A stretch of DNA of 28,887 nt from positions 1-28,887 of the IMG/VR virus record IMGVR_UViG_3300021197_000219; one strand, written 5' to 3'. Below are positions 11,335-24,193 of the stretch, piece by piece; the first letter of the stretch is position 1, and the number at the start of each line of letters is the position of its first letter. The notes under the pieces were generated by a model, which saw nothing but the letters and a program-made list of their open reading frames with translations, was not told where the DNA came from and ran no database searches. Position numbers and translations under genes: made by a program. This DNA is from a virus.

Positions 11335-12009
11335 TTATTCCTCGTTGTACATATTATTAAATACTCTACCTGTATCCCAGACGTAATCTAAATCTTCTTT
11401 AGAGTGAAACACTCTCTGACTAGGTTTGAAGTCTGGCGCACCTTCTCCTGTCTCAAACCAAGCAGGATGGGTAACTCTTACTCTGTTATTCGGTAATGCT
11501 ACAATGTTTCCTGTGTAGCTACCTGCATCTACTAGCTCTAATACGTGGCTCTGTTTATGCTGTGCTGGGTCATCTGCTATCTCTGATCCTGTATAGTCTA
11601 CAGTGAAGTAATATTTAGCTGGATAGAACTCACCATCTACTTTCGCCATCCAAGGGGCTGGTGTAGCTCTGTTCAACACGTAGACTGAGTGATCATGTGA
11701 CATACAATCCCAAGGCTGTGCTGCATAGGCTGGCAACTCTTCTGCCCACTCCTCTACAGGTGTATCACCTACGAGTGCAGTAATAGGCATTCTCGCCCAC
11801 ATCGCCCCACCGTGTACGTTAGGTTCGTCTGTATCATCTGATTCACAACCAGTAAAGATAACTTGGAAGCTGAGTGATCTATTTGGCATAGTCGTCACAG
11901 CTATTACCATGCAATGTAGGAACTCACCATGGTATCGTTCAAAGTTGCACGTATATTCTCTGCGTACCCATGCCTTGAAGTATGGGATGTTACTCTGTAA
12001 GTAGGGCAT
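11335..12009 (-). CDS. Conserved phage protein, unknown (possibly structural)
   Basis: 224 aa, acidic to neutral, mixed alpha/beta, and the only sizeable globular protein of this cluster. It opens MPYLQSNIPYFKAWVRREYT, a beginning I associate with conserved hypothetical proteins of marine phages. It is rich in Trp, Tyr and His and has no membrane segment or recognisable catalytic motif. Codon usage looks closer to the GC-richer right arm than its small basic neighbours do. Its ATG immediately follows the stop of the 58-aa gene (TAAATG). Function not known. Confidence 0.72.
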   Translation of the reverse strand: MPYLQSNIPYFKAWVRREYTCNFERYHGEFLHCMVIAVTTMPNRSLSFQVIFTGCESDDTDEPNVHGGAMWARMPITALVGDTPVEEWAEELPAYAAQPWDCMSHDHSVYVLNRATPAPWMAKVDGEFYPAKYYFTVDYTGSEIADDPAQHKQSHVLELVDAGSYTGNIVALPNNRVRVTHPAWFETGEGAPDFKPSQRVFHSKEDLDYVWDTGRVFNNMYNEE

Positions 12010-12922: not shown

Positions 12923-13107
12923 TCAACTACTTAGTTGAGAGTGACAAGTGATATGCAATCAGTTGCCATACTATGGTATGTTTATTGTTGCAAGATTGCC
13001 ACACTAAGAGTGTGTTGCAAAGTCGATGCTTATTTTACCCTATCCCCACCGAGAAGGTGGCAGATGACATTACAGTGTCAGGCAAGGAAGGTGCGACACC
13101 GTGCCAC
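12923..13107. ncRNA. Candidate structured RNA (multi-hairpin, three-way junction)
   Basis: Consecutive helices can be drawn by eye. H1 is 12923-12928/12933-12938 (TCAACT/AGTTGA). H2 is 12955-12960/12994-12999 (GCAATC/GATTGC), extended by 12963-12966/12990-12993 with an AG bulge and capped by 12967-12971/12976-12980 (CATAC/GTATG). H3 is 13000-13005/13009-13014 (CACACT/AGTGTG). Then GTGGCA/TGCCAC (13057-13062/13102-13107) encloses GACAT/GTGTC (13066-13070/13075-13079) and GGTG/CACC (13090-13093/13097-13100), a closed three-way junction. CCACC/GGTGG (13046-13050/13056-13060) would compete with the closing helix. Strand and promoter are unknown; it could be an sRNA, a leader regulator or a structured origin. 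Confidence 0.4.
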
Positions 13108-13157
13108 ATAACGAGGCAACTTGACAACTCTAGCTATTGTTAATAGTTTATAAAGAT

Positions 13158-13200
13158 AATATTTAAGGATCTCATATTTATGTGAGAGATCTTAAATATT
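13158..13200. promoter_or_regulatory. Long hairpin before the first rightward gene
   Basis: Arms 13158-13173 and 13186-13200 pair over 15 bp (AATATTTAA/GATCTC against GAGATC/TTAAATATT) with one bulged G and a 12-nt loop. It lies 37 bp before the ATG at 13238. There is no downstream T run, so a simple intrinsic terminator is unlikely; attenuation, RNase III processing, mRNA protection or an operator are options. Confidence 0.55.
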
Positions 13201-13237: not shown

Positions 13238-13900
13238 ATGAAAAACTCAACATCAACAAAACCACTTGGTACTCTTGAAACTGAAGGTCTAGCTTTAGCT
13301 AAGGCTTGGAGATCAAGAGATCGAAAAGATAAGAATCAATTCAGTGTTGACATCAAAGATGACGGTCAGTTTGACCCTAGTCAGAAAAGACCTAGTGGTC
13401 TTCTAGTCAGGACAGGTTTTATCATGTCTCAGATTAAGATTAACAACACCACTTTAGTATTAAGTGGTTTGAACAATCTTGACAGAAGAAGAAGAGCAGA
13501 ATGTCACTGGTTCTATGAGAACCACAAAGACTGTTTAGAGTTTATCTCTAAATCTAAGAAAGGTTATACTAACCTTAGTGCCTTACAGAAAGCTATGGCT
13601 AAAGCCAACAAGCAATCAGAGATTGAGGATAAAGAGACTGATCCTAGCGAAGCTACTGATAGCGAAGCTACAACTAGCGAAGCTAAACAGTCCGACATCG
13701 GACAACTTCCAGTTACGAAGTATGATCTAGCCAAGGCAATCATGAAAACTTGTCAAGATAACGAAATAAATCCTTTGGATTTGATTGACATCATTTTGAT
13801 CAATGTTGAGAATCAACCTAAACAACCAAAGAATGTTGTTTCAATGGGAAGCCACAAAGTGGATTCAGGTTGGAAAACAGTAAAGCAAGCTAATGCTTGA
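13238..13900 (+). CDS. First gene of the rightward arm, unknown
   Basis: 220 aa, hydrophilic. The N-terminal 120 residues have a compact folded look (GLLVRTGFIMSQIKINNTTL, then LNNLDRRRRAECHWFYENH). Residues about 134-152 are an acidic linker with SEATD/SEATT/SEAKQ pseudo-repeats, followed by a helical C-terminal part (YDLAKAIMKTCQDNEINPLD). As first gene after the control region it is probably early-expressed, perhaps a takeover or regulatory factor. The linker codes at DNA level for three 15-bp repeats and one of the GTCCGA palindromes. Only a weak AGAAAG precedes the ATG. Family not recognised. Confidence 0.75.
   Translation: MKNSTSTKPLGTLETEGLALAKAWRSRDRKDKNQFSVDIKDDGQFDPSQKRPSGLLVRTGFIMSQIKINNTTLVLSGLNNLDRRRRAECHWFYENHKDCLEFISKSKKGYTNLSALQKAMAKANKQSEIEDKETDPSEATDSEATTSEAKQSDIGQLPVTKYDLAKAIMKTCQDNEINPLDLIDIILINVENQPKQPKNVVSMGSHKVDSGWKTVKQANA
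13645..13685 (+). repeat. Three tandem 15-bp repeats (TAGCGAAGCTA core)
   Basis: TAGCGAAGCTA occurs at 13645, 13660 and 13675, exactly 15 bp apart, encoding Ser-Glu-Ala plus two variable residues each time. The core is itself a small inverted repeat (TAGC-GAA-GCTA). It lies five bases before the first GTCCGACATCGGAC palindrome. Confidence 0.8.
13690..13703. repeat. Palindromic element copy 1 (GTCCGACATCGGAC)
   Basis: Six-bp perfect arms (GTCCGA/TCGGAC) around a 2-bp centre, inside the first rightward gene, where it codes SDIGQ with flanking bases. Identical 14-mer to copies 2 and 3. Confidence 0.85.
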
Positions 13901-14063
13901 ACGTGAACAAATCACAGCGTTCTGGATTGCAACACTATGCATGGCGGTATTCTTTGCCGCTATGTATATCACCTTCCCTTGGCCACAGGAGTCAATGGAT
14001 ATTATCCAACACGAGTATGAGATAGACGGATACTTGTATAATTGCGAAAGGATTGGATCATGA
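13893..14063 (+). CDS. 56-aa single-pass membrane peptide
   Basis: Starts within the last bases of the preceding gene. Reads MLEREQITAFWIATLCMAVF, continues hydrophobic to about residue 29 (one transmembrane segment), then has an acidic extracytoplasmic or cytoplasmic tail with two Tyr-rich stretches and one Cys. It overlaps the next micropeptide by ATGA. Translation is supported by the tight overlaps on both sides and the clean membrane-protein composition. Small membrane peptides early in phage transcription often act in exclusion or host inhibition; here that is a guess. Confidence 0.65.
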   Translation: MLEREQITAFWIATLCMAVFFAAMYITFPWPQESMDIIQHEYEIDGYLYNCERIGS

Positions 14064-14149
14064 GACAAGTTATACTTGACTGCATAGCACTGCTATCAAT
14101 GCTCATTATAATTTTGAGCTTGACAACGCTACTATATACAATAATATAA
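14060..14149 (+). CDS. 29-aa membrane micropeptide
   Basis: Reads MRQVILDCIALLSMLIIILS and continues hydrophobic almost to the end: one transmembrane helix with a one-basic-residue N-terminus. ATG overlaps the stop of the 56-aa peptide (ATGA). It could partner with that peptide in the membrane. The short length leaves room for chance, but overlap and composition support it. Confidence 0.5.
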   Translation: MRQVILDCIALLSMLIIILSLTTLLYTII

Positions 14150-14183
14150 ATAGTATGAATGTATTATGAATACTATTTTATTA
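14148..14183 (+). terminator. Weak terminator-like hairpin
   Basis: Nine-bp arms AAATAGTAT (14148-14156) and ATACTATTT (14170-14178) with a 13-nt loop, followed by TTTATTAT. It is AT-only apart from two G/C pairs, so its stability is modest. It closes the two-micropeptide unit before the 97-bp gap. Confidence 0.35.
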
Positions 14184-14212
14184 TATGTATATGTAGTATT
14201 GAAATTGAAACA

Positions 14213-14226
14213 GTCCGACATCGGAC
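14213..14226. repeat. Palindromic element copy 2 (GTCCGACATCGGAC)
   Basis: Intergenic copy, 20 bp upstream of the ATG at 14247 and preceded by an AT-rich stretch. This position would suit an operator or a leader hairpin that controls the following gene. Confidence 0.85.
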
Positions 14227-14246
14227 ACTTTAAATGGAATTAAAAT

Positions 14247-14849
14247 ATGACTAACAATATAATGAAAACTTTTAACAAAGCTACACCTGCTATGATACGT
14301 AATGGTGTCGCATGGTACAAACGTGCCAAGCGTGACTGTAATCAGATAGCTAAAGATACTGGCCTTCCACTATGGAAAGTTGTCGGTGTCGCATCCGCTT
14401 TGTCACCTAACAATAATTGGGAACGTAACAAAGTAGATGCACGTAATATGTGTGAGGCATATGTAGATAATGCCTATGCTGACATATGGCGAGTCAAAGT
14501 ATGTACATACAATCCCAATAAACTTAAAGCATTGAAGATACTTGGACTGTCCGACATCGGACAAGTTAAACGCCAGTTAAATGGGCAAAAGATTGTACCA
14601 TTTTATGGTTGCATAATGGGTGAAGATACCTGTGTAGTTGATGGACACGCAAAGAACATCTACTATGGCAAGAGGCATACTTTGACAGATGCCAAGTCCA
14701 ATGTAGGAGTACGTGAGTACAAGGTAATCGCTGATGCCTATGTATCTACTGCCAAGGCTATCAATAAAAAGCTAGGCACCAAGTACAAAGCATTTCATGT
14801 TCAGGCTATCACTTGGGTAGCTTGGAGAGAGATGCATGGCATAGCATAG
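14247..14849 (+). CDS. Conserved phage protein, possible DNA-repair-like fold
   Basis: 200 aa. Motifs in order: MIRNGVAWYKRAKRDC, VVGVASALSPNNNWERN (about 46-62), a lysine-rich helical stretch, VPFYGCIM (about 117), VDGHAKNIYYG (about 132-142) and QAITWVAWREMHG near the end. The spacing of an A-x-LSP...W-x-x-N block, an F-x-x-N/G block and an invariant-looking Asp-Gly-His resembles a widespread family of phage/plasmid hypothetical proteins; the general pattern (helical, with a conserved Asp late) recalls helix-hairpin-helix base-excision glycosylases, but this is a weak impression. A second GTCCGA palindrome is embedded in the gene. No clear Shine-Dalgarno; TGGAATTAAAAT precedes the ATG. Confidence 0.75.
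   Translation: MTNNIMKTFNKATPAMIRNGVAWYKRAKRDCNQIAKDTGLPLWKVVGVASALSPNNNWERNKVDARNMCEAYVDNAYADIWRVKVCTYNPNKLKALKILGLSDIGQVKRQLNGQKIVPFYGCIMGEDTCVVDGHAKNIYYGKRHTLTDAKSNVGVREYKVIADAYVSTAKAINKKLGTKYKAFHVQAITWVAWREMHGIA
14548..14563. repeat. Palindromic element copy 3 (TGTCCGACATCGGACA)
   Basis: Seven-bp perfect arms around CA, inside the 200-aa gene and in the same reading frame as copy 1 (codes SDIGQ). Confidence 0.85.
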
Positions 14850-14857
14850 GAGTTGAC

Positions 14858-15013
14858 ATGAAACGTAAGACTGTGATATATCGTAACCCAGTTGCAAAGG
14901 CTATGTTACAGGAACGTCAACCGCCCAAGGTCATACCCCCTAAGAAGGGTGGCAAGGCTAAACGTAACCGCAAGGAGGATAATAGAAATGCGATACGAGA
15001 GAATGAATCTTGA
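14858..15013 (+). CDS. 51-aa basic peptide, unknown
   Basis: Reads MKRKTVIYRNPVAKAMLQER, then a Pro/Lys/Gly-rich region (PPKVIPPKKGGKAKRNRK) and an acidic-amide tail. GGAG lies 5 nt before the ATG at 14858, which is why this start is chosen over in-frame starts inside the previous gene. Probably nucleic-acid binding by composition. Overlaps the next gene by 26 bp. Confidence 0.6.
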   Translation: MKRKTVIYRNPVAKAMLQERQPPKVIPPKKGGKAKRNRKEDNRNAIRENES

Positions 15014-15131
15014 AAAGACAATAAAGATTAGAGTGTCCAATGTTGGACAGACTAAGAAGCACTCAGACGAGTGGAAAAGAGAGCGTAGGAAACTGCGTAA
15101 ACAGAAATATGCACACAGAAAGGTAGCATAA
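14988..15131 (+). CDS. 47-aa basic peptide, unknown
   Basis: Chosen start ATG 14988 follows AAGGAGG by 9 nt, a near-perfect Shine-Dalgarno located in the upstream gene. Reads MRYERMNLEKTIKIRVSNVG, then a Lys/Arg-rich helix. Contains the fourth palindrome copy. Lys/Arg density suggests RNA or DNA contact. Family not recognised. Confidence 0.6.
   Translation: MRYERMNLEKTIKIRVSNVGQTKKHSDEWKRERRKLRKQKYAHRKVA
15034..15049. repeat. Palindromic element copy 4, variant (TGTCCAATGTTGGACA)
   Basis: Differs from copies 1-3 by C-to-T/G-to-A changes at matching positions of both arms (CCGA/TCGG becomes CCAA/TTGG), so the 7-bp inverted repeat is still perfect. It lies in the same reading frame as copies 1 and 3 (SNVGQ instead of SDIGQ). 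Confidence 0.75.
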
Positions 15132-15557: not shown

Positions 15558-15794
15558 ATGGCAGTAATGGCATATGAAATAGGCGTTGCCATTGATGGCG
15601 TGGAGAGTGTCGTCAGATTAGATGACACTTATCCTGCCGTACAGGACTGGGAATCCGCTACGATCTTTGCTATGGAATTAGTAATGCGTCAGCACCCAGA
15701 CAGTAACGTAGAGTTTCTCTACAACAAAGAGTACCCTTCCAACGATTATGTTGGGATGGAAAACATTCACGAAGCACCATTGAGGATACAATAA
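15558..15794 (+). CDS. Unknown 78-aa acidic protein
   Basis: Short, acidic, mixed alpha/beta: a beta-like start (YEIGVAIDGVESVVRLDDTY) followed by an amphipathic helix (ESATIFAMELVMRQH). It sits two bases after the previous stop and one base before the next start, in a tight operon. Family not recognised. Confidence 0.65.
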   Translation: MAVMAYEIGVAIDGVESVVRLDDTYPAVQDWESATIFAMELVMRQHPDSNVEFLYNKEYPSNDYVGMENIHEAPLRIQ

Positions 15795-21574: not shown

Positions 21575-22128
21575 TAGATAAAATTAACTCACCAACAGGT
21601 AAAAACATAATTTTTGAGAAGGGCGAATGGTGGTATGTAGGACAATCAAATGGACGTAGGCGTGTATCAGCAAACAAAAACCATACACGTATGTTTGTTA
21701 ATGGTAAGTACATTCCCAAGTCTCACCCTTTATATAAGGTAGGTAACTATAAGTCATTTGACGATGCTGCCTTTAGCTCTCTATCTAATTATAATAAAAG
21801 TAAGGAAGGTGAGGTGTATGCCATAGTAAACAAAGCATGGGATGGTTGGGTCAAGATAGGTATGGCAGTTGATGCCGAAGACAGGCTGAATAGCTACCAG
21901 ACATCAAGCCCACATAGAGATTACATATTAATACACAAAGAGTTCTTTTCTGACAGGCGCAGGGCAGAAGCGCAGGCACACAGAGAGGCAAGAAAAGTTG
22001 CTAAAAAACACAATTCTGAATGGTTTAAACTAGATGTCTACACTGCCACCTTAATATTAAAGGGGCTTGACAAGTCTATGCCTGATGAAGTAAAACAATT
22101 AACAGGAGCTTTTGAAGCAACACAGTAG
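21571..22128 (+). CDS. GIY-YIG-type endonuclease (T5orf172 / MUG113 group)
   Basis: 185 aa. Residues about 80-155 fit the GIY-YIG superfamily branch: GEVYAIVNKAWDGWVKIGMA, then DRLNSYQTSSPHRDYIL (with Arg) and a later RRAEAQAHREARKVA (with the metal-binding Glu), ending in NSEWFKLD. The N-terminal 75 residues are a separate basic region (YVGQSNGRRRVSANKNHT), possibly DNA binding. It interrupts the otherwise standard helicase-polymerase order, so it may be a free-standing homing endonuclease or a host-DNA-degrading enzyme. Coupled to the helicase by ATGA. Confidence 0.8.
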   Translation: MIDKINSPTGKNIIFEKGEWWYVGQSNGRRRVSANKNHTRMFVNGKYIPKSHPLYKVGNYKSFDDAAFSSLSNYNKSKEGEVYAIVNKAWDGWVKIGMAVDAEDRLNSYQTSSPHRDYILIHKEFFSDRRRAEAQAHREARKVAKKHNSEWFKLDVYTATLILKGLDKSMPDEVKQLTGAFEATQ

Positions 22129-22144
22129 AAAAGGAATCACCAAC

Positions 22145-24193
22145 ATGATTACAATCCTAGATGTAGAGAACACAGTCACAAAGAGAAATGGCAAGATGCA
22201 CCTTGATCCATTCGAACCAGAGAATACATTGGTTATGGTGGGGATGCTAGATGGTACTGGACACGAGCAAATTATAACTTTTGACCACACAGAGCATCCC
22301 CCCACATTAAATGGCAGACAGATAGTACAGGATAAACTTGACCTCACCACACGCCTTGTCGCACACAATGCCGCACACGATTTGATGTGGCTGTGGGAGT
22401 CAGGCTTTACCTATGAGGGTGAGGTGTTTGATACTATGCTAGGTGAGTACATATTACAACGAGGACAGAAAGAACCTCTATCACTAGAAGCATGTGCTGA
22501 ACGTCACCAGTTACATACACAGAAGCAAGACACATTAAAAGAATATTTTAAACAGGGATTAAATGTTGCAGAAATACCACACAATGAACTGTCTGAGTAT
22601 CTATCTGCTGACTTACATGCGACACAACAGTTGTTCAGAGAGCAGGACAGGCAGTATACTTATGGTACAGGCAGGACACTTGTAGATACGATACGTCTTA
22701 CAAATCAGTTAGCTGTACACCTAGCACGTATATATCAACGTGGGTTCAAGGTAGACATGGATGCACTGGATGAAGTGCGTGTAGAGTTTGAGACTGAAAA
22801 GACTGAACTTACTAAACAACTAGAGGAACAGGTACAGGAACTGATGGGTGACAGACCTATCAATCTGAACAGCCCAGAGCAGTTGTCTTGGGTTATATAC
22901 AGCCGTAAGGTATTTGATAAGAAAGTGTGGGCTGAAGCATACGAGGATCGTGTATCAGACAGGCAACATCTAGCCAACGTAAGACAGATGACGTTGCCTC
23001 TGCATAAACAATACGCTGTGGTCTGTACTCAGTGTATGGGTCATGGTTGGATACGTAAGAAGCGTAAGGATGGCTCACCCTACAAGAACACAAACAAATG
23101 TCCTGAGTGTGATGGAGCAGGGTATCTGTACCGTGATAGAAAAGAGTTAGCTGGGCTGAAGTTCAATGCACCAGATGCTAAATGGGCAAGTGCCAATGGC
23201 TTCAGTACAAGCAAAGACAATCTCGTATACTTAGAAGGTATAGCTAGATCTCGTGGCATGTATGATGCAGAGGTGTTTCTACAACGAGTACGTAGACTGT
23301 CAGCACTTGATACTTATCTATCTAGTTTCGTTGAGGGCATAGCTACTCATGTTAAGCAGGATGGTAAGCTACATGTAAGACTACTGCAACACAGGACAGG
23401 TACAGGCAGGTTATCTGGTGCTGATCCTAATATGCAGAACATGCCCAGAGGTGGTACGTTTCCTGTGAAGAAAGTATTTGTGTCTCGTTGGGATAACGGA
23501 GAGATCATGGAGGCTGACTTTGCACAGCTAGAGTTTAGAGTTGCGGCATTCCTCAGTCAGGACAGAACAGCTATCAAAGAAGTATCTACAGGCTTTGATG
23601 TGCATAGCTACACAGCTAAAGTTATTACTGAAGCAGGGCAGAATATCTCTCGCCAAGACGCAAAGGCACATACATTTGCTCCTCTCTATGGTGCGTCAGG
23701 CTTTGGTCGTACACCTGCCGAAGCTGCATACTATCAACAATTTACCACCAAGTATTCAGGTATAGGTGCATGGCATAAGCGGCTTGCCAAGGAAGTCATT
23801 ACGACAGGTAATGTTCGCACACCATCAGGTCGTGAGTTTGCATTCCCTTTGGCTACACGTAGAGCGAATGGAAGTATCACATACTTTACTCAGGTAAAGA
23901 ACTATCCTGTGCAATCCTTTGCTACAGCAGACATCGTGCCAGTATCTCTTATCTATATAGACAAGATGTTACAGGCTAACAAATTACAATCATGTGTCGT
24001 TAATACCGTACACGATTCAATCGTGATTGACGTACACCCTAATGAGAAGGAGAAGGTAATACGGATCATCAAGCGTACTAACGAAGTACTGGTTGATATA
24101 GTCAATAAGAAGTGGAACATAGACTTTAATGTACCATTATTATTAGAAGCAAAAATAGGTAAGAATTGGCTTGACACTAAAGACGTGGCATGA
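22145..24193 (+). CDS. Family A DNA polymerase with DnaJ-type zinc-finger insert
   Basis: 682 aa from ATG 22145 (AAGGA 9 nt upstream; an earlier in-frame ATG lies in the previous gene). 3'-5' exonuclease: Asp6 and Glu8 (LDVENT), Asp79 (HNAAHDL), Tyr152/Asp156. Polymerase: motif A Asp458 (EADFAQLEFR), motif B Arg503, Lys507, Phe511, Tyr515-Gly516 (RxxxKxxxFxxxYG), motif C His623-Asp624 (VHDS). Between them, residues 294-301 (CTQCMGHG) and 319-326 (CPECDGAG) form two CxxCxGxG halves, a DnaJ-like zinc centre. The same architecture is published for phage HMO-2011. It replicates the phage genome with the primase and helicase. Phe511 aligns with E. coli Pol I Phe762. Confidence 0.95.
   Translation: MITILDVENTVTKRNGKMHLDPFEPENTLVMVGMLDGTGHEQIITFDHTEHPPTLNGRQIVQDKLDLTTRLVAHNAAHDLMWLWESGFTYEGEVFDTMLGEYILQRGQKEPLSLEACAERHQLHTQKQDTLKEYFKQGLNVAEIPHNELSEYLSADLHATQQLFREQDRQYTYGTGRTLVDTIRLTNQLAVHLARIYQRGFKVDMDALDEVRVEFETEKTELTKQLEEQVQELMGDRPINLNSPEQLSWVIYSRKVFDKKVWAEAYEDRVSDRQHLANVRQMTLPLHKQYAVVCTQCMGHGWIRKKRKDGSPYKNTNKCPECDGAGYLYRDRKELAGLKFNAPDAKWASANGFSTSKDNLVYLEGIARSRGMYDAEVFLQRVRRLSALDTYLSSFVEGIATHVKQDGKLHVRLLQHRTGTGRLSGADPNMQNMPRGGTFPVKKVFVSRWDNGEIMEADFAQLEFRVAAFLSQDRTAIKEVSTGFDVHSYTAKVITEAGQNISRQDAKAHTFAPLYGASGFGRTPAEAAYYQQFTTKYSGIGAWHKRLAKEVITTGNVRTPSGREFAFPLATRRANGSITYFTQVKNYPVQSFATADIVPVSLIYIDKMLQANKLQSCVVNTVHDSIVIDVHPNEKEKVIRIIKRTNEVLVDIVNKKWNIDFNVPLLLEAKIGKNWLDTKDVA

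Follow-up and report, generated by a model that had tools for sequence, protein, structure and literature searches.

The question raised by this locus is what reads four perfect dyads (GTCCRAYRTYGGAC) found where the rightward early arm of a virus record begins, all of them within 13.69–15.05 kb of the window, by which we mean the whole 28,887-nucleotide stretch of DNA that was analyzed. The sequence-only reading of this DNA had placed identical copies of GTCCGACATCGGAC at 13690, 14213 and 14549 and a changed copy, TGTCCAATGTTGGACA, at 15034–15049, and had proposed three explanations for them, namely a regulator-binding site, a series of RNA hairpins or a small mobile palindromic repeat. The positions were verified, as were the reading frames of the coding copies (KQSDIGQ in a 220-aa gene, LSDIGQ in a 200-aa gene and VSNVGQ in a 47-aa ORF) and the non-coding placement of the 14213 dyad 5′ of the 200-aa gene. 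All four are perfect palindromes as had been described, but their extent had to be corrected, with copies 1 and 2 spanning only 14 nt and copies 3 and 4 spanning 16 nt. The first dyad (13690..13703, GTCCGACATCGGAC) is within the gene for gp01 (220 aa; 13238..13900, + strand), in linker codons for S-D-I-G, and most CRP-1-like relatives have a site at the corresponding gp01 linker. The second (14213..14226, GTCCGACATCGGAC) is in a non-coding leader and ends 20 nt 5′ of the ATG (14247) of the 200-aa gene, which encodes a DUF7178 protein (PF23802; 14247..14849, + strand). The third (14548..14563, TGTCCGACATCGGACA) is within that gene, at a variable loop of the protein, and is limited to the close relatives of the window, L005–L008. 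The fourth (15034..15049, TGTCCAATGTTGGACA) is within a basic 47-aa ORF (14988..15131, + strand) that is kept in CRP-1-like phages. A putative early promoter, TTGACA-17-TAGTTT (13121..13149, + strand), is located 5′ of gp01; it was inferred from leader alignment and resemblance to consensus only, and has an equivalent in several relatives.

No copies had been noticed elsewhere in the window, and a search with GTCCRNNNNYGGAC bore this out, with no further match in the 28,887 bases. Nor are the dyads randomly frequent: when 14-nt dyads (6-nt arms, 2-nt centre) were counted in 300 dinucleotide-preserving shuffles, the four observed GTCC dyads compared with a mean of 0.017 and a maximum of 1, and the largest shuffled group sharing any common outer four bases had three members versus the four with GTCC in the window. 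Rfam models gave no match at the dyads at E values up to 1.

The window belongs to an HMO-2011-type phage close to the Roseobacter phages CRP-1 and CRP-345. It encodes a terminase, a portal, a tyrosine integrase, a DnaB helicase and a DNA polymerase A (PolA; 22112–24190) that matched DNA_pol_A at 6e-55 and, at residues 303–342, DnaJ_CXXCXGXG at E 4e-5, which is under the curated cut-off. Since a DNA polymerase A with a partial DnaJ central domain is the hallmark of the HMO-2011-type (PMC9038755), the window meets the criterion for membership; its polymerase shares 75% identity with the CRP-345 and CRP-1 enzymes and 66% with that of HMO-2011. Phages of this type are among the dominant marine groups, and integration is known for some members, e.g., CRP-3 (PMC9038755, PMC6918029). 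A separate observation was that 11335–12009 of the window matched PHROG 3704, annotated as ferredoxin, and is possibly a phage metabolic gene.

The dyads were kept at matching places in L005–L008, whose 200-aa genes are 74–97% identical to that of the window. At the DUF7178 site, the bases inside the arms were GACATC in the window and L005, AACGTT in L006 and L007, and GACGTC in L008, always forming a perfect dyad, and across relatives the dyads were often at matching places with paired changes. DUF7178 genes of lower identity (no more than 56%) had a different loop sequence and no dyad, from which we conclude that the DUF7178 site arose in place. Codon choice within gp01 gave a second line of evidence, as the Ser codon of the dyad was TCC in 26/26 gp01 genes (TCC is 6–8% of Ser codons) and the Gly codon was GGA in 25/26 (GGA is 17–18% of Gly codons). 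Selection on the dyad itself, which the sequence-only reading had suggested and for which it had proposed the synonymous-codon check, is thus borne out, in that both arms of orthologous sites change together and the dyad codons are fixed.

An exact scan of viral contigs for TGTCCAACGTTGGACA returned 59 stretches, many of them multi-copy, and the complete genomes of CRP-1, CRP-345 and HMO-2011 have 5–6 sites each. Recurrent sites were mapped relative to the start of gp01, the first early gene. Site A (about −235) is in the divergent region and precedes a promoter-like block by about 100 bp or more; site B (+385 to +460) is within gp01; site C (+900 to +1100) is in a leader, directly 5′ of the ribosome-binding site; site D (+2100 to +2250) is within the 47-aa ORF; and a further site (about +7000) is within the integrase gene. 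The window has B (dyad 1), C (dyad 2), the DUF7178 site and D (dyad 4), and at the counterpart of site A (13065..13080) it has only TGACATTACAGTGTCA, which we infer to be a lost or diverged copy. Confinement to the early arm, as had been claimed, therefore holds in the window but not in its relatives, many of which have the divergent intergenic copy and several the copy in the integrase gene. The early region of HMO-2011 has five copies of AGTCCGACAGCGGACT, one of them reversed, and orthologous sites in the HMO-2011 subgroup have centres of ACAG, CTGT, ATGT or ATAG in both orientations. One match, CRP-345 site 14469, was rejected as a coding coincidence: it is in a conserved replication-arm gene with nearly the same bases in the site-free phage CRP-603. 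With several copies, above chance, in regulatory places, the dyads meet the copy-number and placement criterion for an operator array, one of several. A feature that counts against the gp01 operator reading is that the flanks are asymmetric relative to transcription, with an A at −3 in 125/126 sites and the matching T in 91.

Other elements were observed in the same non-coding regions. The ribosome-binding GGA of early leaders is often in the loop of a small hairpin with a covarying stem (TAAAC-GGA-GTTTA, TTAC-GGA-GTAA, AATC-GGA-GATT); these hairpins often directly follow a dyad and also occur without one (CRP-1 1081 and 647; HMO-2011 85, 458 and about 54834; L047, G003 and others). The gp01 leader (window 13160–13200) has a hairpin (ATCTCA...TGAGAGAT) that is present in most relatives with sequence changes and is possibly an RNA element, and in the CRP-1-like phages L031, L074, CRP-1 and CRP-345 the non-coding DNA that separates site A from the putative early promoter contains a conserved block (CTCGTGAGTTT...GGGAAACGGCAGGCGCAGAGGATCAC).

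The presence of sites tracked the presence of gp01. Relatives of gp01 are encoded by CRP-1, CRP-345, HMO-2011 and the window, and these four genomes or records have 4–6 sites matching GTCCRN4YGGAC, while zero such sites were found in nine HMO-2011-type isolates without gp01. Relatives lacking the dyads would have refuted the sequence-only reading; that test was run, and phages with gp01 keep the dyads and phages without it have none. The first gp01 set was biased, as most of its contigs had been found through the dyad, and an unbiased set was therefore assembled from gp01 loci identified by protein profile alone (best 80 of 206 relatives). All 80 of these loci had sites, 2–9 each, for a total of 405 in 660 kb for the best 80 of 206, versus 2–3 for each of five permuted arm pairs. 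Among the early genes tested, only two families were in 12/12 site-bearing and 0/9 site-free genomes: gp01 and a 78-aa acidic protein (window 15558–15794, pI 4.2), which is possibly a partner or antagonist of gp01. The DUF932 and Pyr_excise genes were considered as dyad readers and rejected, being absent from some site-bearing phages; the early protein at window 15796–16359 matches pyrimidine dimer DNA glycosylase (Pyr_excise) and PHROG 624.

The proposed dyad reader, gp01, has a strongly basic N-terminal helical domain (pI 9.8–10.3), a disordered linker (residues 134–156) and C-terminal helices. In the AlphaFold2 model of the window gp01 the site B codons fall in that linker, where pLDDT is under 50, and in general the in-frame dyad copies are in a disordered linker or loop. 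It counts against gp01 as the reader that the protein matched neither a known DNA-binding family nor a solved fold: at an E threshold of 0.001 Foldseek gave nothing from the PDB, the best VIA-align Z scores were 3.4 and 4.0, and the single BFVD match (S4S2E1, E 1e-4) is unnamed there. Absence of a recognized fold shows neither novelty nor its opposite.

Further evidence came from matched differences between sites and protein. Dyads were classed by positions 5/10 as A-type (GTCCA..TGGAC, to which dyad 4 of the window belongs) or G-type (GTCCG..CGGAC), with site forms GTCCAACGTTGGAC and GTCCGACATCGGAC; a hybrid would be GTCCGACGTTGGAC. Arrays were nearly uniform by genome, as 69 of the best 80 of 206 gp01 loci were all A-type, nine all G-type and two mixed, and there were no hybrids in the 283 unique sites of those loci. 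A first impression, that covariation at 5/10 reflected base pairing within a strand, was set aside, as it proved to be a genome-wide property. Both types are mixed in the window, L005, L007 and L234/L235, yet without hybrids, and this mixture counts against gp01 as the reader. The gp01 tree, from which the two trait columns had been excluded, has seven changes of array type, at least five of them on supported branches. Outside the HMO-2011 subgroup, gp01 of G-type arrays had S113, K117 and a non-Arg residue at 120 (N, A, S or K) in 8/8 cases, including that of the window, and gp01 of A-type arrays had T113 in 64/66 and mostly R120. In the window the corresponding residues are S114, K118 and A121 (113, 117 and 120 in L172 numbering), all G-type residues, and three of its four sites are of that type too; in L005 and L007, T113 is retained and three of four sites are A-type. 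Position 117 had changed in 6/6 sister pairs examined, and the spacing of 113, 117 and 120 puts them on one face of a predicted helix, 112–127. Position 137 also splits the types and was not counted because it is encoded by the dyad itself. Since the three positions were chosen post hoc, and the independent-pairs sign test alone was not significant (five pairs, median p 0.125), we treat the matched change as strong circumstantial evidence and not as proof.

We consider it likely that the dyads are an operator array read by the phage's own gp01, with binding inferred and not demonstrated. Under this model gp01 would probably bind each 14–16 bp palindrome as a symmetric dimer, although there are no binding data; direct contact, dimerization and recognition through helix 112–127 are all inferences. 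One operator (site A of the relatives) would sit 5′ of the early promoter, others in leaders, directly ahead of ribosome-binding sites, and in early genes that can accommodate S-N/D-V/I-G in frame, and bound gp01 would most likely control early transcription and its own gene in the manner of a multi-operator repressor. Repression is our default by analogy with the SPBRE/MrpR and L5 repressors; the direction of control has not been shown, and repression in preference to activation, like a role in lysogeny, is a guess.

The same palindromes might instead act in RNA, as early-mRNA hairpins (5-bp stem, 4-nt loop) that gp01 or another protein binds to control translation or termination. Predicted stabilities of −7.7 to −11.2 kcal/mol (z about −2.5 to −3.3), the leader sites directly 5′ of ribosome-binding sites and the lack of hybrid arms in the 283 unique sites (best 80 of 206 gp01 loci) are compatible with this, although the last is accounted for by genome-wide homogeneity, and GTCC/GGAC was never swapped for other pairs, unlike in a stem selected for structure only. 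Site A also precedes the putative early promoter by >100 bp. The loops vary freely, and asymmetric centres (ACAG/CTGT) flip orientation at matching places, which would be acceptable to a symmetric reader of double-stranded DNA but not to a reader of one RNA loop; DNA is therefore favoured, and RNA action seems to us improbable. In-frame spread of a small mobile palindromic repeat among the early genes might account for the identical 24-mers that recur in some genomes (four copies in L047) and for the one frame common to coding copies, but that frame is explained by S-N-V-G being the mildest peptide. Furthermore, the DUF7178 dyad replaces aligned variable-loop residues and leaves the protein one residue shorter, not longer, dyads of close relatives differ by paired substitutions, and no clean empty sites with whole-unit insertion and target duplication were seen. 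With sites arising in place, we give a mobile repeat almost no credence, and a regulator-binding site is much the strongest of the three explanations originally offered. Selection on the protein motif S-N/D-V/I-G was likewise rejected: codon choice follows the dyad, one copy is in a non-coding leader, and gp01 proteins of the HMO subgroup lack the motif, the sites of that subgroup being elsewhere than in gp01.

Two further explanations keep a DNA-binding protein and change its role or origin. If the dyads were a centromere or replication site, ParB/parS-like or KorB-like, at which gp01 loads for DNA segregation or organization, regulation would not be the main role of gp01. The 16-bp palindromic layout of TGTCCAACGTTGGACA is as in parS (consensus TGTTTCACGTGAAACA), the sites are clustered close to the gene encoding the proposed binder, and copies within ORFs are tolerated. 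KorB of plasmid RK2, a ParB-family global regulator whose palindromic OB operators are repeated over the replicon, is similar in having replicon-wide palindromic operators and one replicon-encoded reader, but differs in its family, as gp01 has no ParB match. No ParA/ParB family match was found in the early region of the window or in gp01, Pfam gave no ParB match for 28 gp01 members, and a ParB/parS system was rejected on that criterion; recurrence at gene leaders also suggests regulation, and we judge a partition role unlikely. Borrowed host control, in which a host regulator binds the dyads, would be consistent with the same 16-mer in the unrelated phage contigs G014/G015, but is already largely refuted and can hardly be maintained: 257 Gb of bacterial and archaeal genomes gave 34 stretches versus roughly 60 estimated by chance, that scan found no Roseobacter regulon, and HMO-2011-type phages without gp01 are site-free, including some from the same host strain (FZCC0023). 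None of these rivals accounts jointly for gp01 co-occurrence, a uniform type across the genome and orientation flips.

A gp01-read operator array would have precedents. The SPBRE repeats of Bacillus phage SPbeta, also a short repeated DNA element of a temperate phage first found in silico, were subsequently shown to form the array of operators for the master repressor MrpR (YopR), which differs in that its fold is that of a tyrosine recombinase and its 15-bp motif is at promoters (PMC10516654), whereas gp01 is small and helical with no recognized fold and has sites also inside genes. Operators and stoperators of L5-type mycobacteriophages are similar in their many copies, at promoters and in the transcribed region near gene starts, bound by one phage protein; there, however, a monomer binds asymmetric 13-bp sites, which number more than twenty and keep a fixed orientation relative to transcription (PMC9283540). 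The dyad array has about 5–8 sites that are palindromic, with asymmetric HMO-type variants in either orientation, and an L5-type stoperator system was rejected on these grounds. In Pseudoalteromonas NZ_JABVXF010000030 (L121/L126) the identical 16-mer TGTCCAACGTTGGACA occurs three times beside a Phage_CI_repr gene, but there is no gp01 relative, and this is probably convergent use of a similar palindrome. Clusters of the 16-mer were seen there, also upstream of an L5 gp82-like gene, and in Pseudocolwellia L141. L096–L098 (contigs G014 and G015; unrelated phages, 48% G+C) have eight and five copies or near-copies of TGTCCAACGTTGGACA with AT flanks, contig-wide, and two other DUF7178-bearing phage contigs, L021 and L023, have a different palindrome, GTTTACASTGTAAAC, in an operator-like array of 7–9 copies.

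A phage regulator with an operator array is thus of a known kind, while the gp01 family, its dyad sites and the array-wide specificity switch appear to be new within the open-access literature; two main HMO-2011-type genome papers (PMC9038755, PMC6918029) contain no mention of "palindrom", "promoter" or "repressor". We suggest only tentatively, as something that may well prove otherwise, that gp01 is the founding member of a new phage master-regulator family whose DNA-binding fold is undescribed and in which specificity switches array-wide with three residues of one helix and defines immunity-like groups in HMO-2011-type marine phages. The gp01–dyad pair is present throughout one branch of these abundant marine phages. 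If the operator reading is true, it would supply a regulator and its sites for HMO-2011-type phages, a candidate for their missing master gene switch, and early-gene control, perhaps including lysogeny, would be testable with cultured CRP-1, CRP-345 and HMO-2011. It would also provide a natural record of a DNA-binding protein and its whole set of sites changing specificity together, even inside coding sequence.
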